A DNA stretch of 49,590 nucleotides from NCBI GenBank assembly GCA_030655755.1, contig JAUSOQ010000001.1:1-49590 (forward strand), written 5' to 3'. The position numbers and the translations under genes are program-made. The notes under the pieces are model-generated. The model saw only the letters and a program-made list of their open reading frames with translations. It was not told where the DNA came from and ran no database searches. Below are positions 11,045-34,017 of the stretch, piece by piece; position 1 is the stretch's first letter; each line of letters opens with the position of its first letter. This stretch comes from Coriobacteriia bacterium. Its GTDB lineage: Bacteria > Actinomycetota > Coriobacteriia > Anaerosomatales > Anaerosomataceae.

Positions 11045-12609
11045 GGTCTCAACTCCTCATCAGGGTCGACGTCGAGTCTGCTCAGACGGATCCTTGGCGC
11101 TCTGACGCGATCCTTGCCGGTGTTCTTCGACTGGTACAGCGCGTCATCCGCCTGCCGCAGAAGTGACTCTTTGTCTTCGGCATGGAGCGGCATATTGGCT
11201 ATGCCGACGCTCACGGTGACGTGGATCGTGGACTCCCCCTCCGCGTCAAAGAAGCGGTGGAAGCTCACGGCCTCGCGGACCTTCTCGGCCACGATGAACG
11301 CGCCCGAAGCATCCGTCTCGGGCAGTATCACCGAGAACTCCTCGCCGCCATAACGCGCGACGATGTCGACCTCACGCACGGTCATCTTGATGACTCTGCC
11401 GATGGCGGCCAGAACACCGTCACCCACAAGATGCCCGTAGGTGTCATTGACGGCCTTGAAGTCGTCGATATCGAGCATCAAGAACGAGAACTGCTTGCCA
11501 TACCGACTGGCGCGGCCGATCTCATCATCAAGTCGCTGCTGGAGATAGCGGTAGTTGTAGAGGTCGGTCAGCTCGTCGGTGATGGCGAGACGTTTCGTCA
11601 GCTTATAGAGGCGCGAGTTCTCCACCGCCACGACGAGTTCCGCGGCGACCGCCTGCAACACGATGCGATCGTCAGTGCCGAGCGTGTCGATCGCCTCGCT
11701 GTCGGCGCAGAACACCACGATCATCTGGTTGTGGTCGAGCAGCTCCATGCAGGCGAAATGTTCGTCATAGATACCGAGATCACCGGTCGTGAAGTCGATC
11801 TGTCCGTACGCGCTCGAGGAGATATCGGCACGCAGACCCTTGCTGGCCGAGAACAACGTCTGACCCTTGGCCTTGTCGATGACGAAGATACACGCCGCGG
11901 AGATGTCTATGACCTTCTGCAGCGTCTCGAGTACGACCGGTCCCACCGCGTCGAAATCGAGTGTCGAGTGGATGATCTCGGTTATCTCGGCGATCGCGCG
12001 GAGTTCGGCGACGCTCCGTTCGAGCCGGGCGTTGAGTTCGGATGTATCGTCGACGCGCTCCTCGGCCTCATCCGCGCGATACGACTGCCGCTCCATCATA
12101 AGACCGACGAACCAGCCGATGGCGAGCACGCCGCAGACCTTCATGGTGATGAAGAGCACGCGCACCACCGACATGTCCAGTGACGGATCGGCGAAACGTC
12201 CGATGAGATAAGCCATGACGAGGAACGCCGAGTAAGTCCAGGAACGCGCCCTGCGAAACACCATCGCGTAGAACATCGACTCGAGCATCACCCAGACGTA
12301 GAAGGGGTCGTGCCAGACAGACGTCGCGAGCACCAGGGCGCCGAGCGCCACGCAGTCGAATGGCAGCGTGAAGTGCACGAGGCGCTGGAGATCGAGGTCC
12401 GGCACGACCATGTGCGCGATGCCGATACCGATCGTGTACAGCACCCAGGCGCCCATACCCACAAGAAAGGCCGCGTGCTCCAGAGATGTGGAGATATCCT
12501 TGGCCCAGAGAAGGTACACCCCGATCAAGAACACCGACGCGACGCTCCTGACCAACAGGAACGCCGAGCTGTTGAGTTCGATACGACCTGTGTCCGGGGA
12601 AGGAGCCAC
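11041..12609 (-). CDS. Membrane-anchored GAF-GGDEF diguanylate cyclase
   Basis: About 522 aa. Five to six hydrophobic helices (first 180 residues) are followed by a short coiled coil, a GAF-like domain (about 200-350), and a GGDEF domain ending the protein. The active-site motif is RYGGEEFSVILPE. The inhibitory I-site RxxD (REVD) sits five residues before it, so product feedback by c-di-GMP is expected. It makes c-di-GMP in response to a signal bound by the GAF or membrane region. An in-frame TTG exists at 12642, but GTG at 12609 has GAAGGG 8 nt upstream and is preferred. It is the first gene of a two-gene unit with pheA. An EAL protein that could degrade the product is encoded at 29961. Confidence 0.85.
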   Translation of the reverse strand: MAPSPDTGRIELNSSAFLLVRSVASVFLIGVYLLWAKDISTSLEHAAFLVGMGAWVLYTIGIGIAHMVVPDLDLQRLVHFTLPFDCVALGALVLATSVWHDPFYVWVMLESMFYAMVFRRARSWTYSAFLVMAYLIGRFADPSLDMSVVRVLFITMKVCGVLAIGWFVGLMMERQSYRADEAEERVDDTSELNARLERSVAELRAIAEITEIIHSTLDFDAVGPVVLETLQKVIDISAACIFVIDKAKGQTLFSASKGLRADISSSAYGQIDFTTGDLGIYDEHFACMELLDHNQMIVVFCADSEAIDTLGTDDRIVLQAVAAELVVAVENSRLYKLTKRLAITDELTDLYNYRYLQQRLDDEIGRASRYGKQFSFLMLDIDDFKAVNDTYGHLVGDGVLAAIGRVIKMTVREVDIVARYGGEEFSVILPETDASGAFIVAEKVREAVSFHRFFDAEGESTIHVTVSVGIANMPLHAEDKESLLRQADDALYQSKNTGKDRVRAPRIRLSRLDVDPDEELRP

Positions 12610-25917: not shown

Positions 25918-26901
25918 TCAGGCCTGCGCGCCATTGGACGCTGATGATGTTCCCTCCACGCCGATTGGCATCTCGAGCGACAACCATACGGTCGTGCCGA
26001 CCGGGATCTCCCCGTCCGCCGGGGTGGAAACGTCCGCCTGTACGCTCCCGTACCGGGTGTCCACGAAGTATGTGACGAAGGCTCCGGCAAACTGCCGTTG
26101 AGTCACCGTACCGGGAATGTCGCCAGACTGCAGCGACAGCGATACGTTCTCGGGACGCATGAACTTCACTCCATCCGCCGTCTCGATCAGTGAACCACGG
26201 CCGATGAAATCGGCCACGAAATCCGTTGCCGGCAGCTGGTAGACGTCGCGTGGGACACCGATCTGTTCGACCCGGCCCTCGTTGATCACTACGATCCTGT
26301 CGGCGAGGCTCAGTGCCTCCTCCTGATCGTGAGTGACGTGGATGGTCGTCGTCCCCAGTTTGGAGTGGAGTGCCCGTATCTCGCGTCGCATCCGCTCGCG
26401 CAGCTTGGCGTCGAGGTTGGAGAGCGGCTCATCGAGAAGAAGCACCTTGGGATTGACGACGAGCGCCCTTGCGAGTGCCACGCGCTGCTGCTCGCCTCCC
26501 GAGAGCATTGCCACCCGGCTGTCATAGCGGCCGCCCAGACCGACGAGATCCAGCATCTCGCTCGCCTTGGCGTGTGCCTCTTTCTTGGCCGCGCCGGTGG
26601 CGCGAAGCCCATACGCGACGTTCTCGATGACACTCATGTGGGGGAAGAGCGCGTAGCTCTGGAAGACCGTCGCAGTGGGTCGACGGTTCGGGGGCAGGGA
26701 GGTGATGTCTTCATCCTCCAGCCGGACCTCGCCGCGCGAGGGCGTCTCGAAACCGCCGATCATCCGCAGGGTCGTGGTCTTCCCACAGCCGCTCGGTCCG
26801 AGCAGACAGATGAACTCCCCGCGCTCGATCTCGAGCGTGAGATCGTCGACGACGGCCCGGCCGTCATACTCCTTGGTCAAGCGCTTCAAGTGAAGATACA
26901 T
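25918..26901 (-). CDS. ABC importer ATPase, Fe3+/polyamine/phosphonate type
   Basis: A 327-aa ATPase of the PotA/FbpC group. Walker A is LGPSGCGKTTTLRM, the Q-loop FQSYALFPHMSV, the signature LSGGEQQRVALARAL and Walker B LLLDEPLSNLDAKLRERM. A C-terminal TOBE-like domain (about 240-315, MRPENVSLSL) follows. It energises uptake through the fused permease just upstream, whose 3' end overlaps this gene's start by 38 bp. The complex with the lipoprotein at 28604 forms a complete three-gene importer. Substrate is not determined by this subunit. Confidence 0.92.
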   Translation of the reverse strand: MYLHLKRLTKEYDGRAVVDDLTLEIERGEFICLLGPSGCGKTTTLRMIGGFETPSRGEVRLEDEDITSLPPNRRPTATVFQSYALFPHMSVIENVAYGLRATGAAKKEAHAKASEMLDLVGLGGRYDSRVAMLSGGEQQRVALARALVVNPKVLLLDEPLSNLDAKLRERMRREIRALHSKLGTTTIHVTHDQEEALSLADRIVVINEGRVEQIGVPRDVYQLPATDFVADFIGRGSLIETADGVKFMRPENVSLSLQSGDIPGTVTQRQFAGAFVTYFVDTRYGSVQADVSTPADGEIPVGTTVWLSLEMPIGVEGTSSASNGAQA

Positions 26902-28585
26902 ATCCGACCCCCTTCGTCCTCGACGTTCCGGATCTCCTGAGGAACAGCCAGGAGAATCCCAGGTTGACCGCGAGCACCACTACTATCATGAGTGTGGCGA
27001 AGACGGTGCCTTCGCCGATGTGGCCACTTCGAATCGCTCCGAACATGACGACCGTCGCCACCTTGGCGGACGGCGAGATCAGGAAGATGATCGCGCCGAT
27101 CGTGGTCATCGTGGCTGTGAACGTATTGATGAAGCTCACCAGGAATGCTGGCTTGAGTTGGGGCCAGACCACTCGTACCAGCGTCCGCATGCGACTCGCA
27201 CCGAGATCGGCTGATGCGTCCTCCAGGATCGGGTCCGCCTGGCTCAGCACGGCCGCTCCCGCCTTGGCCGACACGGGGATCTGTCGGAACATCGCATTCA
27301 GCACGACTATGGCCGCCGTGCCTGTCAACGCCAGGGGATACTGGCGGAAGGCGATCGCGTACCCGATGCCGAAGAAGGGCCCAGGGATGAGGAAGGGCAA
27401 CATGGCGACGAACTCGACCGCCCGGCGCCCGGGGAATCGGCGCCGTTCGATCACGTAGGCAAGCAGAAGTCCCAGAAAGCTGCCCCCCACGCCTGCGACG
27501 AGCGAGTATCGGATGCTTCGCCAGAAGCTCTCGATGGCGCTCCCGTTCAGGCCCTCCCAGTGGCGCAGACTGAAGGAGAAGTCGACCCCCCAGGTCTTGG
27601 TGAACGAACCCGAGACGATGGTCCCGTACTTGACCATCACGAAGATCACGAAAACCCATGTCAGAAGTGCGATTAGAACTCGCATCGTCCGTGGAAGCCG
27701 CGCCGGGTATCCCGCGTCCTCCGCCGGGGTGCCATACATGGAGGAATCTCGCATCGTGCGGCGATAGATGACAAAGGCGACAAGCGCCGGCAGCAGCAAC
27801 AGCGTGCCCATCGCGGCTGCGGTCCCCATGTCATAGAGCGCTATGACATTCAGGTACGCCTCGGTCGCCAGCACCGTGAAGTTCCCACCTATGATGATCG
27901 GCGTCCCAAAGTCCGAGAGAGATCGCACGAACGTGATGAGCCCGGCTGCGACGATCCCCGGGCGGGCAAGAGGGAGCGTCACCTTCAAGAATGTACGAAA
28001 GGACGAGGCCCCCAGGTCGAGCGAGGCCTGCTCCAGACGTGGGTCCATACCCGTGGTGACACCGTAAATGAGGAGTGCCGCCAGGGGAGTGAAACCCACC
28101 ATCTGCATCAGCAGCACACCATGCCATCCGTAAGGGTTCACATTCAGCCTGAGAAGGTCGTAGGTGATGAGACCCCTTCGGCCGAAAAGCATCACGTACG
28201 AGAGCGCCGATACGAACGGCGGGGAGATCATGGTAAGGAGCATCGTGCCGAAGACGACTTTGCCGCGAATGCCCTTCGAATGCCGCATATACAGCGCCAC
28301 GACCAGACCCAACGCGACCGACAGAACGGTCGCCGCCGTGGCGATCCAGATGCTGTTCCAGAGCAGCCCGGCGTTCTCGGAGAAGAGCCCGGCATATCTC
28401 TGAAGGGTGAGGCCCTCGTCGGAAAGGACGCTCTCCCACACGACGGCCAGCGTAGGCCACAGGATGAACACCAGGACAGCGACGATGGCCGCACCGTAGA
28501 CCCCACGCTCTAGGAGTGCGGAAGCGAGGGCGCCCCTATCGGACGCCCTCGCACGCTGTCTTGGCGGTCGAATACCTCGGCTCAT
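26864..28585 (-). CDS. Fused two-domain ABC importer permease (FbpB-type)
   Basis: A 573-aa permease with about 12 transmembrane helices made of two tandem binding-protein-dependent transport domains. Each carries an EAA-like ATPase-contact loop: ASLDLGASSFRTFLKVTLP (about 190) and ASADLGASRMRTLVRVVWP (about 475). Single-chain permeases like this are typical of Fe3+ (FbpB/SfuB) and 2-aminoethylphosphonate importers. It lies 18 bp downstream of the binding-protein gene and overlaps the ATPase gene by 38 bp. Confidence 0.9.
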   Translation of the reverse strand: MSRGIRPPRQRARASDRGALASALLERGVYGAAIVAVLVFILWPTLAVVWESVLSDEGLTLQRYAGLFSENAGLLWNSIWIATAATVLSVALGLVVALYMRHSKGIRGKVVFGTMLLTMISPPFVSALSYVMLFGRRGLITYDLLRLNVNPYGWHGVLLMQMVGFTPLAALLIYGVTTGMDPRLEQASLDLGASSFRTFLKVTLPLARPGIVAAGLITFVRSLSDFGTPIIIGGNFTVLATEAYLNVIALYDMGTAAAMGTLLLLPALVAFVIYRRTMRDSSMYGTPAEDAGYPARLPRTMRVLIALLTWVFVIFVMVKYGTIVSGSFTKTWGVDFSFSLRHWEGLNGSAIESFWRSIRYSLVAGVGGSFLGLLLAYVIERRRFPGRRAVEFVAMLPFLIPGPFFGIGYAIAFRQYPLALTGTAAIVVLNAMFRQIPVSAKAGAAVLSQADPILEDASADLGASRMRTLVRVVWPQLKPAFLVSFINTFTATMTTIGAIIFLISPSAKVATVVMFGAIRSGHIGEGTVFATLMIVVVLAVNLGFSWLFLRRSGTSRTKGVGYVSSLEALDQGV

Positions 28586-28603
28586 GCCGGGATCCTTCTT
28601 GCG

Positions 28604-29710
28604 CTACTTCTTGGAGCCGAAGTCGGCCTCCCACTTGGCCACGACATCGTCGCGGACCTGGCCCATCAGCTCGAAGTCGATCGTCTGGAGGTCAGCCTCC
28701 ATGATACCCGCGTCGATCAGCGCCTGCGGCGGCTCGACGTCGCTTCTGACGGGCAGGCGAGGATCATTATCCCGCAGAACCTCCTGGCCGTGAGGCGACA
28801 GGCACCAGTCCACAAAGACCTTGGCTCCGCCGAGATTCTCGGCGTTGGAAAGGATCGCGACGGGCGATGGCCACCAAGGCGTGCCATCCTTGGGGAAGAC
28901 GGCGACCACAGGGTAGCCCTCTGCCTTGAGGTCTTCGCCCGTGCCCGGCGCAAGGCCGACTATCGCCTCGCCAAGCGCGGCCTTTTGCGGCGGCTCGCCG
29001 CCGCGCTCGGAGTAGAATGGGATGTTGTTGTCGATCTTCGCGAAGAACTCCCAGCCGGCGTCCTCACCCATGGACTGCAGGATACCAGTGAGAATCGTGT
29101 ACGCGGTGCCCGAGATGGCGGGGTTGCTCATCGCGATCTCGCCCTTGTACGCTGGCGAGGTGATGTCCTCCCACGTCTGCGGGATATCGAGACCCTTCTC
29201 CTGAGCGACCTCTTCGTTCACCACGAAGCAGACCGTCACCAAAGACACGCCTGTCCAGTAGCCCTCAGCATCCTTGAACTCCGCCGGGACGGCGTCGGAG
29301 AACGGCGACACGTAGGGCTCGATCAGACCGTCTTCCTTGGCAGCGATGAAGCTGTCCACGCCTCCACCGAACCACACTTCGCCCACCGAATCACCTTTCT
29401 CGGCACGCAAGCGCGCGAGAACCTCACCTGAGGACATGTCCAGGTACTCGACCTTGATACCCGTGTCCTCCGTGAAGGTGGAGAAGATCTCCTCCTGGCC
29501 ACCATAGGCCGAGAAGATGTTGATGGTCGTACCCACAAGTTCTTCAGGGACGACAAGATCGGCTGTCTGTGCGGTCTCTGTCGTCTCGCCCTCGATGTCA
29601 GGGTTGTCGGCGGCCTCTTTGTCCGAGGCACTGCAGGCCGTGAGCACCGACATGCTCATGACAAGCAGCACCGCGAGAAACAGCGAGAGCCATCTCTGAC
29701 CTGTCTTCAT
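28604..29710 (-). CDS. Substrate-binding lipoprotein of the Fe3+/phosphonate-type importer
   Basis: A 368-aa periplasmic-binding-fold protein. The signal sequence ends in a lipobox (SVLTAC, Cys about 24), so the mature protein is lipid-anchored outside the membrane. The fold resembles FutA/FbpA and AEP-binding proteins: INIFSAYGGQEEIFSTFTEDTG at the start, GEVWFGGGVDSFIAAKEDGL, and an NPAISGTAYT-type hinge. Ligand residues are uncertain, so Fe3+ and phosphonates both remain possible. The ATG at 29710 is chosen over 29743 for its GGGAGG site and because the signal peptide begins there. A good promoter lies 50 bp upstream. Confidence 0.88.
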   Translation of the reverse strand: MKTGQRWLSLFLAVLLVMSMSVLTACSASDKEAADNPDIEGETTETAQTADLVVPEELVGTTINIFSAYGGQEEIFSTFTEDTGIKVEYLDMSSGEVLARLRAEKGDSVGEVWFGGGVDSFIAAKEDGLIEPYVSPFSDAVPAEFKDAEGYWTGVSLVTVCFVVNEEVAQEKGLDIPQTWEDITSPAYKGEIAMSNPAISGTAYTILTGILQSMGEDAGWEFFAKIDNNIPFYSERGGEPPQKAALGEAIVGLAPGTGEDLKAEGYPVVAVFPKDGTPWWPSPVAILSNAENLGGAKVFVDWCLSPHGQEVLRDNDPRLPVRSDVEPPQALIDAGIMEADLQTIDFELMGQVRDDVVAKWEADFGSKK

Positions 29711-29759
29711 GTATCCTCCCTTGCTTATGGGGCGGTTGCCCACCGTTCACTCCATCAGG

Positions 29760-29788: not shown

Positions 29789-29876
29789 GTATTATGTGCG
29801 CTTATAGTGTTGTGCTCAGAGTGACCCCGGCCCGTGTCCCGGCAGACAGGTAACCAGCAGCCCCACATGTGAGGAC

Positions 29877-29909
29877 TCTCACGCGCATCTCATCGGCTAC
29901 TCATCTTCT
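29877..29909 (+). promoter_or_regulatory. Three 11-bp direct repeats upstream of the EAL gene
   Basis: Three head-to-tail 11-mers run without a gap: TCTCACGCGCA (29877), TCTCATCGGCT (29888) and ACTCATCTTCT (29899). The shared core is CTCAyC. A GTGAG/CTCAC inverted pair overlaps the first (29869-29882). Three bases after the last repeat comes CCGAATATCCAG, the same layout as at 30873. An 11-bp period with direct repeats is typical of OmpR/PhoB-family activators. Confidence 0.55.
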
Positions 29910-29960
29910 CGGCCGAATATCCAGTGTATGAAGTGACGTATTGAGAGGAGGTGCATCGTC

Positions 29961-30824
29961 GTGGCGAACCTGCTTGAATCCGCTCCCGTGTCCTGGAGCA
30001 CCGAGGTCTGCGGTTCCGGCTGCACGCCGACTCCGCTCAGCCGATTCGCGAGCGAGAACGAGTACCCGGCCTGCGGGGAAGACCTCCTGACCATCATCGG
30101 GAATGAGGACGTGTCCACCCTGATGCAGCCCATCCTCGACGTCCGAGCGATGTCCATCATCGGCTACGAAGCTCTTTCGCGCGGCCCGGCGGGGAGCGCG
30201 TTCCAGAATGCGGAGACCCTTTTCCAGTCGGCCCGTGCATTCGGCCTGTCCCAGGCGCTCGACCGGGTGTGTCTCAAGAAGGCCCTGCGGGCGGCGGCGG
30301 GCATCCCCGGTGATCGACTACTGTTCCTGAACATCGAGCCGGAGGGCTTAGCGGACCCCGGCGTGCAAGACGATCTGGTGACCCTATCCTCGTCGGCGTC
30401 GCTGCGGCCCAACCGGGTGGTGCTCGAACTCACCGAGCGCGGGATGATCGTCGACTTCGACGAGTTCGGAGCCGATCTCGTCGGCCTGCGCGAACTCGGC
30501 TTCAGGGTGGCGATCGACGATGCGGGAGCGGGTCACAGTTGCCTGCAATCGCTCGTGGAGGTCAGACCCGACTGGGTGAAGCTCGATATGTCACTCATAC
30601 GGGGTGTGGACACCAATGAGGTCAAGCGGGATCTCGTCGCCAGTCTCATCGGTTTTGGCGAGCGAACCGGGATGAAGCTGATCGCGGAGGGGATCGAGAC
30701 CATGAGCCAACTCACCACTCTGCAGTCACTCGGTGCGCGCTACGGTCAAGGTTTCCTGCTGTCTCGACCGAGACCACCCTTCCCGGACGACCAGGAGTGT
30801 CTCGTAGGGCAGTTAGTCTGCTGA
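29961..30824 (+). CDS. Stand-alone EAL-domain c-di-GMP phosphodiesterase
   Basis: A 287-aa soluble protein: about 50 non-conserved residues with three cysteines, then a full EAL domain. Catalytic and metal residues are all present: Y-EAL (E70), FLNIEPE, LELTERG, AIDDAGAG, KLDMSLI, AEGIE and the GQGFLLSRP glutamine. Loop 6 reads DDAGAGHS rather than the common DDFGTGYS, which may affect dimerisation. It should hydrolyse c-di-GMP. GTG start with a strong AGGAGGTG site 8-10 nt upstream. The promoter carries the triple 11-bp repeat, so it probably belongs to the regulon of the response regulator at 31938. Confidence 0.88.
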   Translation: MANLLESAPVSWSTEVCGSGCTPTPLSRFASENEYPACGEDLLTIIGNEDVSTLMQPILDVRAMSIIGYEALSRGPAGSAFQNAETLFQSARAFGLSQALDRVCLKKALRAAAGIPGDRLLFLNIEPEGLADPGVQDDLVTLSSSASLRPNRVVLELTERGMIVDFDEFGADLVGLRELGFRVAIDDAGAGHSCLQSLVEVRPDWVKLDMSLIRGVDTNEVKRDLVASLIGFGERTGMKLIAEGIETMSQLTTLQSLGARYGQGFLLSRPRPPFPDDQECLVGQLVC

Positions 30825-30861
30825 CATCTCGCTCACGCGCTCCGGGCCCGGACGTAGAGAA

Positions 30862-30905
30862 GATGAGAGATCTCTCATCACCATCTCATCACCACCTCAT
30901 CTCCA
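30862..30905 (+). promoter_or_regulatory. 18-bp palindrome plus three 11-bp direct repeats upstream of the secreted-protein/two-component operon
   Basis: A perfect palindrome GATGAGAGATCTCTCATC (30862-30879) runs into three contiguous 11-mers: TCTCATCACCA (30873), TCTCATCACCA (30884) and CCTCATCTCCA (30895). Three bases later is CCGAACATCTAAG, which aligns with CCGAATATCCAG at the same distance after the repeats at 29877. No -35 box is evident, so an activator probably bound here replaces it. Confidence 0.6.
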
Positions 30906-30959
30906 GAGCCGAACATCTAAGTAAGAACCCATAGGGGCAGAATAAGAAGGAGTGACGAC

Positions 30960-31478
30960 ATGAAACACATGGCACAGAGAACGTTGCACATGAAGCGAGT
31001 GCCCGCACTCGTCTCGATCGCGGTGGCGCTGGCGTTCGCGACCATGGGCACTGCGTTGGCGATCGGAGGCCAGATGACCTCTGGATCCACACCTGAGTCC
31101 GACTTGATAGCAAGCCAGAAGACCGCCCCGGTTGCGGAAGTCCAGTTCCGAGTCGCGGAACGTATCCGCACCGAGCTGGAAGAGCCCGAGGCCACTCGCA
31201 TACCTGAACGTGAGCGTGTGGAAGCTGAGATCCGCGAGGAGGTCCGTGTACGCGAGTGTGAGGAAGGAACCCTTCCCAAGACGCTGTGCGACGCCGACAA
31301 AGACGCGTGCACCGCACCATCCGTCTGCGGGCCTCACGATGAGGACATGGCCAGCATGAAATCGCCGACCACCGAACCCGAGCAGTGCGACCTCGACAGC
31401 AATGCTGAGAACTCGCATGATGAGACAATGGACTCGCATGATTCTGACGTTGAGCGCACCGGATGCAAGACTAGGTAG
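30960..31478 (+). CDS. Small secreted acidic Cys-containing protein, unknown function
   Basis: A 172-aa protein with an N-terminal signal or anchor helix (VPALVSIAVALAFATMGTALA, about 14-34). The exported part has a charged Glu/Arg helix (about 60-100, ERVEAEIREEVRVRECEEG) with five cysteines in all (four between about 100 and 125) and an Asp/Glu/His-rich tail (NSHDETMDSHDSDVERTGC). It could bind metal or act as a signal partner for the sensor kinase downstream. An AAGGAG site precedes the ATG. It is the first gene of a four-gene unit with another secreted protein, a response regulator and a histidine kinase. No family is recognised. Confidence 0.65.
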   Translation: MKHMAQRTLHMKRVPALVSIAVALAFATMGTALAIGGQMTSGSTPESDLIASQKTAPVAEVQFRVAERIRTELEEPEATRIPERERVEAEIREEVRVRECEEGTLPKTLCDADKDACTAPSVCGPHDEDMASMKSPTTEPEQCDLDSNAENSHDETMDSHDSDVERTGCKTR

Positions 31479-31487
31479 TGACGCACA

Positions 31488-31919
31488 ATGTACGCGTCGC
31501 TGATAAAGCGGACTTTGGTCATCGCTCTGAGCGCAACGGTGCTGGTAACCAGCGCCGTTGCGCTCGCGCTGCATTCCATCCCCCGGATCTCAGGCATGCC
31601 GAGCGTACCTGCCGTTCGGACAGCGCTGTCGTTGACCTCCTTCTCATCGGACACCGATTCCGTAGAACCGACTGATGCCGAGATGTCCCAAGATCCCAGC
31701 TCCACACAAAGCGCGGTCCCCGACACCCTCCAGCCAATACCCCCGTCAGACGCGCTTGCTCCAGCCAACCCTGGAGTCGTCGTGGCTCAGACCGTGTCTG
31801 ACCCGCAACGCGAGGTGATCGTACCCGAACCGTACGAGACACTCGACGACCCGATGGACGGTGGCTGTGACGGAGGGACAACCGATACGGGCACGAAGCC
31901 GACCGGTGACCGACACTAG
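31488..31919 (+). CDS. Small secreted low-complexity protein, unknown function
   Basis: A 143-aa protein with an N-terminal hydrophobic helix (LVIALSATVLVTSAVALAL, about 10-28) and a Ser/Thr/Pro/Asp-rich exported region that looks unstructured, ending in a Gly/Asp/Thr stretch with one Cys. It starts 9 bp after the previous secreted-protein gene and ends 18 bp before the response regulator. Two exported proteins before a two-component system suggest an envelope-sensing unit, but the sequence does not show a function. Confidence 0.55.
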   Translation: MYASLIKRTLVIALSATVLVTSAVALALHSIPRISGMPSVPAVRTALSLTSFSSDTDSVEPTDAEMSQDPSSTQSAVPDTLQPIPPSDALAPANPGVVVAQTVSDPQREVIVPEPYETLDDPMDGGCDGGTTDTGTKPTGDRH

Positions 31920-31937: not shown

Positions 31938-32603
31938 GTGAGGATACTTCTCGTCGAGGACGAGGCGCGCATAGCCTCGTTCGTGGTGAAGGGACTCTGC
32001 GCCGACGGCCATGTGGTGGAGCACGCGAGCACCCTGGATGAGGCCGTCAACCTGGCCGTCTCGCGTGAGTTCGACCTCGTCCTTCTCGATCTCCTCCTCC
32101 CCGACGGGCACGGGCGCGACTTCCTCGTCCGTGTCCGTCCGTCGCAACCGGACCTTCCCGTCATCGTGGTGAGCGCGGTGGAGGACGTGGAGGAGAAGGT
32201 CGAGCTTCTCGACCTGGGAGCGAACGACTACATGACCAAACCGTTCGCCTTCACCGAGCTGTCCGCCCGGGTGCGGGCAAACCTTCGCCAGGGGCAGTCC
32301 TCCTCGCGCGTGCTTCGCGCAGGGGACCTGGAACTGGACACCGCTACGCGTGTCGTGACCAGAGGAAACATCTCGGTCGACCTTCCGAGCAGGGAGTTCG
32401 CCCTCCTTGAGTACCTGATGCGTCATCCCGGCCAAGTACTCACGCGGTCCCAGATCCTGGACGCGGTCTGGGGATTCGACTTCGATCCAGGTTCCAACGT
32501 GGTCGATGTGTACGTCGGCTACCTGAGGCGCAAGCTGGACGTACCGGGAGAGTCCTCGCCGATCGAGACCATGCGGGGAGCCGGCTACCGTGTCCGTCAC
32601 TAG
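31938..32603 (+). CDS. OmpR/PhoB-family response regulator
   Basis: A 221-aa two-domain regulator. The receiver domain has acidic residues in LLVEDEA, the phospho-acceptor D51 (FDLVLLDLLLPDG), the switch Ser (VIVVSAVED) and K in YMTKPFAF. The C-terminal winged helix (about 125-220) ends SNVVDVYVGYLRRKLD...ETMRGAGYRV, the DNA-recognition part. OmpR-type factors bind head-to-tail direct repeats about 11 bp apart, as found at 29877 and 30873, making those the likely targets and giving autoregulation. GTG start. It overlaps the kinase start by 14 bp. Confidence 0.93.
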   Translation: MRILLVEDEARIASFVVKGLCADGHVVEHASTLDEAVNLAVSREFDLVLLDLLLPDGHGRDFLVRVRPSQPDLPVIVVSAVEDVEEKVELLDLGANDYMTKPFAFTELSARVRANLRQGQSSSRVLRAGDLELDTATRVVTRGNISVDLPSREFALLEYLMRHPGQVLTRSQILDAVWGFDFDPGSNVVDVYVGYLRRKLDVPGESSPIETMRGAGYRVRH

Positions 32604-34017
32604 ACCGAGACTGACGACAGGGGGTCGGGTTGCGCTGACCGTCGTCGTCTCTGTCGCGCTCGGCGTCATCATGCTCTCGGTCCTGGCTTACGCGGGCGTC
32701 TCCCGCCGCCTCACCACCCAGCGCGACGAGACCCTCGTCGCAGAGGTCGAAGCGTACGCGCAGGCTGTCTCCTCAAGCTCGGGGTTGTACGCTGACGGAT
32801 TGGCGTCGGCGACCAGGTCCTTCTTGGCGGCACGCTCGCCCGCGGGAGGTTCCACGCTCATCATCGTGCGGTTGGCTGACGGACGCTTGCTGTCCAACAG
32901 CGACGTCCGCCTGGAGGATGTCCCGGCCGATCAGGACATCCTCACCGCGACGGAACCCTCTATGGGTTTCATAGATATCGAGTATGAAGGCGAGGTCTAC
33001 CGGTCAGCCCACTCGTCGATCCAGGCGGACGACGGCACGGTCCTTGGCGTCTTCCAGGCCGCGATCCCCACCTCGCCTATCCATGAGACGGTCGCTGGAC
33101 TTGCATTGACCCTGGCGCTCTCGGGGACGCTGATCGTGATCATAAGCGCCGTGTCCTCGGCCATGGTCGCGCGCGCCAGCCTGCGACCCCTCAGGACCGC
33201 CGCCCGCACTGCGGAAGCCGTGACACACTCGACACTCGGAGAACGCATTGCCGACGAAGGCGCCACGGACGAGGTCGGCACGATGGTGCGAGCCGTCAAC
33301 TCCATGCTGGACCGGGTCGAAGACGCCTTCGCCACACAGAAGCGTTTCATCTCCGACGCCTCACACGAGATGCGCACTCCGCTCGCGGCGATCAGGGGTC
33401 ACCTGGAGATCGCCAACGATCCCCGTATCGATCCGGAGGACCGCAAGACCTCGCTCACCGTCGTGGACGAGGAACTGAGCAGGATGGGTCGCCTCGTCGA
33501 TGACCTGTTGACCCTCGCAAGGCTGGAGGGCAACGCACCCAGGCGTGAGCAGTCCCTCGATCTGTCGTTCACGGCATGGGAAGCCGCGGAGCGTGCGCGT
33601 GCTCTGGCTCCCGGCCTCGTCACCTACGAGCGTGCTGAGTCCGTGTGGGTCAAAGGCGACCCCGACCATCTGCTTCAGGCCATCTTGAACCTCGCCGTGA
33701 ACGCCGTCCGTCACACCGGGGAGAACGGTGCAGTAAGCCTGGCGTGCGAGAGTCTCGGGCCCGATGCACGCGTCATCGTCCAGGACACGGGACCGGGCAT
33801 CGCTCCGGAAGATCTGCCTCACGTCTTCGAGCGCTTCTATCGCGCGCGTTCCGAGAGGGCGAAGGAGGGTGGCGGCACAGGTCTCGGCCTGGCGATAACC
33901 GAACGTCTGGTACGCGCACATGGAGGTCGGATATCGGTCGAGAACGTGCCCGACGGAGGTGCGCGCTTCATCGTGACCCTACCGACGATCACGCCGCCGG
34001 AGGACGTCCCCGGGTGA
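32590..34017 (+). CDS. Membrane sensor histidine kinase
   Basis: A 475-aa kinase. Transmembrane helix 1 (about 14-34) and helix 2 (about 170-195) enclose an extracytoplasmic sensor domain of about 130 residues. HAMP follows (about 195-245), then HisKA with SHEMRTPLAA (H259), and HATPase with NLAVNAVRHTGE, DTGPGI and GTGLGLAI. It is the partner of the response regulator encoded with a 14-bp overlap. The outer domain could read the two secreted proteins encoded upstream in the same operon. GTG start at 32590. Confidence 0.92.
   Translation: MSVTRPRLTTGGRVALTVVVSVALGVIMLSVLAYAGVSRRLTTQRDETLVAEVEAYAQAVSSSSGLYADGLASATRSFLAARSPAGGSTLIIVRLADGRLLSNSDVRLEDVPADQDILTATEPSMGFIDIEYEGEVYRSAHSSIQADDGTVLGVFQAAIPTSPIHETVAGLALTLALSGTLIVIISAVSSAMVARASLRPLRTAARTAEAVTHSTLGERIADEGATDEVGTMVRAVNSMLDRVEDAFATQKRFISDASHEMRTPLAAIRGHLEIANDPRIDPEDRKTSLTVVDEELSRMGRLVDDLLTLARLEGNAPRREQSLDLSFTAWEAAERARALAPGLVTYERAESVWVKGDPDHLLQAILNLAVNAVRHTGENGAVSLACESLGPDARVIVQDTGPGIAPEDLPHVFERFYRARSERAKEGGGTGLGLAITERLVRAHGGRISVENVPDGGARFIVTLPTITPPEDVPG

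Follow-up and report, generated by a model that had tools for sequence, protein, structure and literature searches.

An inverted-plus-direct repeat promoter element associated with a CusR/AgrR-like response regulator precedes cytochrome genes in Anaerosomatales and a predicted c-di-GMP phosphodiesterase gene in one of its genomes

The AgrR box of Cupriavidus metallidurans is a 16-bp inverted repeat of 6-4-6 layout (ATKACA-N4-TGTMAT, consensus ATKACANNNNTGTMAT), at which in-phase direct half-sites and the inverted pair are both required for class II activation, including positive autoregulation (PMC7380067). The promoter element described here shares with this system the operator geometry, the in-phase direct half-sites, an OmpR-family regulator, and (both predicted here) a class II position and positive autoregulation. 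It differs in its half-site (ATGAGA/CTCAT), in two extra direct half-sites that are near-constant here but occasional in AgrR, and in its targets, which are cytochromes or an EAL enzyme here and silver/copper resistance in AgrR. The palindrome geometry is also shared with E. coli CusRS and Pseudomonas CopRS (PMC11195947), as is a very small regulon, while PhoB/OmpR operators resemble the element in having direct half-sites one 11-bp helical turn apart and in the domains of their regulator, but lack the inverted half-site, which is part of the conserved element here. Streptomyces CutR was considered as a known counterpart and set aside, its site being TAWATAAA (PMC12802291). Anaerosomatales/OPB41 Coriobacteriia are known to carry many multihaem cytochromes (PMC9686372), and the targets in the relatives examined here are such proteins; the main text of that paper mentions neither histidine kinases nor c-di-GMP. 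Literature searches, with relevance judged on titles and abstracts, returned no description of the promoter element, and no account was found of multihaem cytochromes under the control of an OmpR-type response regulator.

The stretch of DNA analyzed (hereafter the window) comprises 49,590 nucleotides from a Coriobacteriia bacterium and holds two copies of the element, sites A and B, within the following locus:

29867–29872, + strand: site A, inverted half-site ATGTGA (one mismatch to the consensus ATGAGA, and perhaps shifted)
29877–29909, + strand: site A, three 11-bp direct half-sites, TCTCACGCGCA TCTCATCGGCT ACTCATCTTCT, followed by CGG and then CCGAATATCCA (read directly, pattern search, matrix score)
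29915–29920, + strand: site A, putative −10-like element GAATAT within CCGAATATC (conserved A at +38 and T at +42)
29961–30824, + strand: predicted EAL-only c-di-GMP phosphodiesterase, 287 a.a (Pfam PF00563, E 7.4e-49; BlrP1 alignment)
30863–30868, + strand: site B, inverted half-site ATGAGA, forming the 6-4-6 pair ATGAGA-GATC-TCTCAT (read directly, 47-site alignment)
30873–30905, + strand: site B, three 11-bp direct half-sites, TCTCATCACCA TCTCATCACCA CCTCATCTCCA, followed by GAG and then CCGAACATCTA (read directly, pattern search, matrix score)
30911–30916, + strand: site B, putative −10-like element GAACAT within CCGAACATC (read directly, 47-site alignment)
30960–31478, + strand: P2, acidic protein of 172 a.a with an N-terminal hydrophobic segment, no CxxCH, and no family match
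31488–31919, + strand: P3, small protein of 143 a.a with an N-terminal hydrophobic segment and a REVIVPE motif
31938–32603, + strand: OmpR/PhoB-type response regulator (RR), 221 a.a, phosphoacceptor D51 (domain profiles; nearest NCBIfam model TIGR01387, CopR/SilR)
32590–34017, + strand: sensor histidine kinase (HK), 475 a.a, with N-terminal sensor, HAMP, HisKA, and HATPase domains (domain profiles; nearest NCBIfam model TIGR01386)

By direct reading, both sites consist of three CTCAYS repeats, a 7-nt gap, and CCGAAYATC. With numbering from the first CTCA (index 0; 29878 in site A and 30874 in site B), each site has its direct half-sites at positions 0, 11, and 22, its inverted half-site from −11 to −6, and CGAnnnT from +36 to +42, giving a full element of ~55 bp that is composed of the inverted pair ATGAGA-N4-TCTCAT, two more in-phase direct half-sites, and the −10-like CGAnnnT at a fixed distance. 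Transcription would start near 29927 from site A and near 30923 from site B. The original prediction, made from the letters of the window, had described three gapless 11-bp repeats at each of two promoters, three bases between the last repeat and CCGAAYATCYA, and an inverted arm upstream; the sequence agrees, for the repeats letter for letter. Its term “identical” does not hold, as site A is the less perfect of the two, with CTCACG (rather than CTCAYC) as its first repeat and the arm ATGTGA in place of the ATGAGA of site B; the strength of site A is uncertain, given this degeneracy. The comparison with PhoB/OmpR-style direct repeats stands for the 11-bp direct half-sites and falls short in that the inverted pair also belongs to the operator, as in AgrR/CusR. 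Plain PhoB-type direct repeats were thus rejected as the operator, the inverted arm being conserved to the same degree as the repeats in an alignment of 47 sites.

With up to two mismatches, the triple repeat occurs only at sites A and B in the whole genome (2,128,586 bases), and the reversed pattern gave no match. The genome beyond the window was searched with patterns, and relaxed versions of these returned the same two sites plus places at chance level. The window itself was scanned with a position-weight matrix trained on 45 sites from other genomes (window excluded), alongside six first-order random windows. Site B scored 47.3 and site A 44.4, whereas the highest score elsewhere in the window was 2.6 and the highest over the random windows 3.4. 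Could such repeats simply arise by chance in GC-rich DNA? Within the window, the bare triple repeat (up to three mismatches) is only mildly unusual (2 found against 0.56 expected, with 11 of 100 shuffles reaching 2), which is not decisive; the comparative evidence is. Given the uniqueness of the sites in the genome, the absence of the reversed pattern over 69 genomes (counted as refuting), and the strong linkage to RR orthologues described below, we regard a chance origin as vanishingly improbable.

A first scan with the bare pattern over 149 genomes and a parallel search with the RR of the window converged on the same neighborhoods. An extended pattern was found at 48 places in 28 of the 69 genomes of the order Anaerosomatales, with none for the reversed control. 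Bearing in mind that this pattern was built from sites of the simpler one and that conservation at its own positions is partly circular, the aligned 47 sites retain CTCA at 0, the TCA core of the half-sites at +11 and +22 (94–100%), the CGA with its A at +38 (100%), and the T-R-A-G of the arm (68–98%), which reads T-R-A-G-A in the alignment. The T at +42 is 94% conserved though absent from the search pattern. The distance from index 0 to the start codon is 83 and 86 nt at the two window sites, and 81–96 nt in most of the relatives whose multihaem gene adjoins the RR. As the T at +42 falls outside the search pattern and the matrix was trained without the window, these two results, together with the start-codon distances, provide non-circular support for the element. 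The absence of the repeats from orthologous promoters had been named as the result that would count against the prediction; they were searched for in the relatives and are present.

The element also travels with the RR. Orthologues with 64–71% identity are encoded in 22 of 60 relatives (best matches elsewhere are paralogues at ~47% or less), and in most loci with enough flank the site is on the same strand, usually 0.5–3.9 kb upstream of the RR; both sites of this genome lie 1–2 kb upstream. Across the 61 genomes that both searches covered, site and RR are found together in 22, the RR only in 1, the site only in 2, and neither in 36; both site-only genomes are incomplete drafts, and the RR-only genome, G055, has a weak candidate site scoring 21.7. 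Fisher’s test for this co-occurrence gives a p of 2.7e-13, which overstates the evidence as the genomes are related. Presence and absence of the pair alternate within and between families, and a genome of the same genus (G001) has neither site nor RR orthologue. Taken together, the co-occurrence, the upstream position, and an operator geometry in keeping with the RR’s best profile match lend good support to the proposed action of the downstream OmpR-type RR on the repeats. The sites may instead bind another OmpR-type regulator, such as a 45%-identical paralogue on contig C81, with the linkage being coincidental, as OmpR-family half-sites can be shared between regulators and the genome holds seven RR matches at E < 1e-30. 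However, loci of the C81 type (L081, L095, and L096) have no site, nor do genomes that keep other RRs but not this orthologue, including the same-genus genome, and we therefore consider this reading very unlikely.

Both domains of the RR, the receiver (PF00072, 82.3 bits) and the winged-helix Trans_reg_C (PF00486, 93 bits), scored over cut-off, placing it in the OmpR/PhoB type. Its best NCBIfam model was TIGR01387 (CopR/SilR), yet the score of 201.8 bits is below the cut-off of 279.2, and the HK is likewise nearest to TIGR01386 (CopS/SilS) at 225.5 bits, below the cut-off of 292.55. The 6-4-6 inverted-repeat operator seen in CusR/CopR/SilR is present at site B and conserved in the 47 sites, and direct half-sites at +11 and +22 stand beside the inverted pair, as in AgrR-type operators. 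An alignment of HK orthologues revealed no conserved Cys, His, or Met in the sensor region, on which ground metal sensing by the HK was rejected, and no copper genes were found in the immediate neighborhood. Given the profile scores below cut-off and a sensor without conserved metal ligands, we do not assign a heavy-metal system, though the RR appears to resemble the CusR/CopR group at the DNA level.

The genes for P2, P3, the RR, and the HK are tightly spaced (gaps of 9 bp and 18 bp, then an overlap), and site B is therefore most likely the promoter of this operon, which would make it autoregulatory. P3 matches, in position and in its REVIVPE motif, the small protein found upstream of the RR in relatives. 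Autocontrol of the regulator and the kinase were both missing from the original prediction, whose main claim, a single OmpR-type two-component system controlling the EAL phosphodiesterase and two secreted proteins, now appears to have strong comparative support.

In relatives, the locus comprises the site, a multihaem cytochrome (15–27 CxxCH; matches to Cytochrom_NNT and Cytochrome_C7), sometimes an acidic protein (0 or 1 CxxCH), the small protein ending in REVVxPxxREDD, the RR, and the HK. Sites unlinked to the RR lie mostly ahead of secreted multihaem or single-haem proteins. At 38 of the 45 non-window sites, an ORF starting 40–220 nt downstream encodes a hydrophobic leader and CxxCH, against a background of 3.1% for random places in the same loci. 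In relatives, the promoter thus probably drives secreted c-type cytochromes, both multihaem and single-haem, a regulon that the original prediction had not recognized; its description of a “c-di-GMP/envelope” regulon suits this species and not the rest of the order.

Some targets depart from the usual form. At L131 and L132, the protein encoded behind the site is secreted and has two CxxCH motifs, followed by repeats resembling cell-wall-binding repeats. For L152 (G008 C3:44800-49300) and L083, we noted a promoter 88% identical over ~231 nt to that of a single-haem gene in G015; behind the G008 promoter, Cas9-like and Cas1-like ORFs occur instead of the haem gene, as though a cytochrome promoter had acquired a CRISPR-Cas9 locus behind it.

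In the present genome, the cytochrome of the relatives’ locus is absent (best matches 31% identity), and an EAL gene behind the element was seen in no other genome examined. This gene looks like a lineage-specific recruit, with its control by site A resting on one genome. The protein carries all the motifs EAL, N, E, DD, K, E, and Q when aligned with BlrP1 (3gfx), and would hydrolyze and so lower c-di-GMP, a plausible substrate given 14 GGDEF matches in the genome; one of these is a GGDEF domain protein at 11107–11586 of the window (minus strand). The EAL protein is a paralogue (~50% identical) of a degenerate GGDEF + EAL protein present in 46 of the 69 genomes of the order, with this genome’s own copy on contig C77. 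Divergent from site A lies an Fe(III)/FbpABC-type ABC transporter (25918–29743, minus strand; SBP_bac_6/8, fused BPD_transp_1, and ATPase). The missing cytochrome and the less perfect site A would also fit promoters that are decayed relics of ancestral cytochrome promoters, with no meaningful control of the EAL gene. We find this quite unlikely, as a matrix from other genomes gives high scores to both sites, their distances to the start codon agree with those in relatives, the EAL protein retains its catalytic residues, and site B remains in place ahead of the regulator operon.

On the basis of what the sequence itself shows (the two sites, how they are conserved, their link to the regulator, and their targets), we favor, with a probability of about 0.85, an explanation in which sites A and B are class II activator promoters of the CusR/AgrR-like RR at 31938–32603; binding, activation, the effect of phosphorylation, and EAL activity are steps that we infer. 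The adjacent HK would sense an extracytoplasmic cue and phosphorylate the RR at D51, upon which RR dimers would occupy the inverted pair ATGAGA-N4-TCTCAT and, through cooperative binding, the two in-phase half-sites over the −35 region. They would thereby bring in RNA polymerase at a promoter that has no more than a weak −10 (CGAnnnT). The EAL phosphodiesterase would be switched on from site A, causing c-di-GMP to fall, and P2-P3-RR-HK from site B in a positive feedback loop. The locus may have lost its cytochrome and gained the EAL gene while keeping promoter and regulator. Activation is deduced from the weakness of the −10 and from the position of the repeats over the −35 region, and its main mechanistic rival is repression, with the RR blocking RNA polymerase until a signal relieves it. 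The half-sites do overlap the inferred −35 region, from which position some OmpR-type regulators, such as CutR in Streptomyces, repress (PMC12802291); however, a −35 is not evident in the promoter, the −10 is weak, and the constant phasing of the half-sites relative to the −10 is reminiscent of the class II activation described for AgrR (PMC7380067), making a mainly repressive role unlikely.

A search of 84,980 species genomes with an exact pattern gave 77 stretches, among them some from Nocardioides, Aeromicrobium, Streptomyces, Geodermatophilaceae, Nesterenkonia, and some Chloroflexota, indicating that the element is not confined to Anaerosomatales. Among 63 loci outside the order, about half hold a related RR (~45–56% identity) within the 8 kb fetched, and 23 places turned up in 396 evenly sampled genomes from the phylum, compared to 1 for the control. 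In other Actinomycetota (L200 and L218 among the loci), the element lies ahead of DUF4956 proteins, Asp-rich small secreted proteins, and a cupredoxin-like protein, and in Streptomyces ahead of a carbonic anhydrase-like ORF adjoining a related RR-HK pair.

We tentatively suggest a phylum-wide two-component system of Actinomycetota whose rigid inverted-plus-direct operator serves redox and envelope surface proteins, which may be multihaem cytochromes in OPB41-like Coriobacteriia and may have been rewired to the lowering of c-di-GMP in this species. If true, this would be a direct regulatory tie between the sensing of extracellular electron transfer and second-messenger control. Little appears to have been described of how Gram-positive anaerobes regulate their multihaem cytochromes; the sequence signature of the element, TGAGA-N5-CTCAYS-N5-CTCATC-N5-CTCATS-N7-CCGAnnnT, predicts regulon members in largely uncultured genomes, and the analysis names a candidate regulator. 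It would also document a case in which promoter and regulator were retained and a predicted c-di-GMP phosphodiesterase took the place of a cytochrome as the target.
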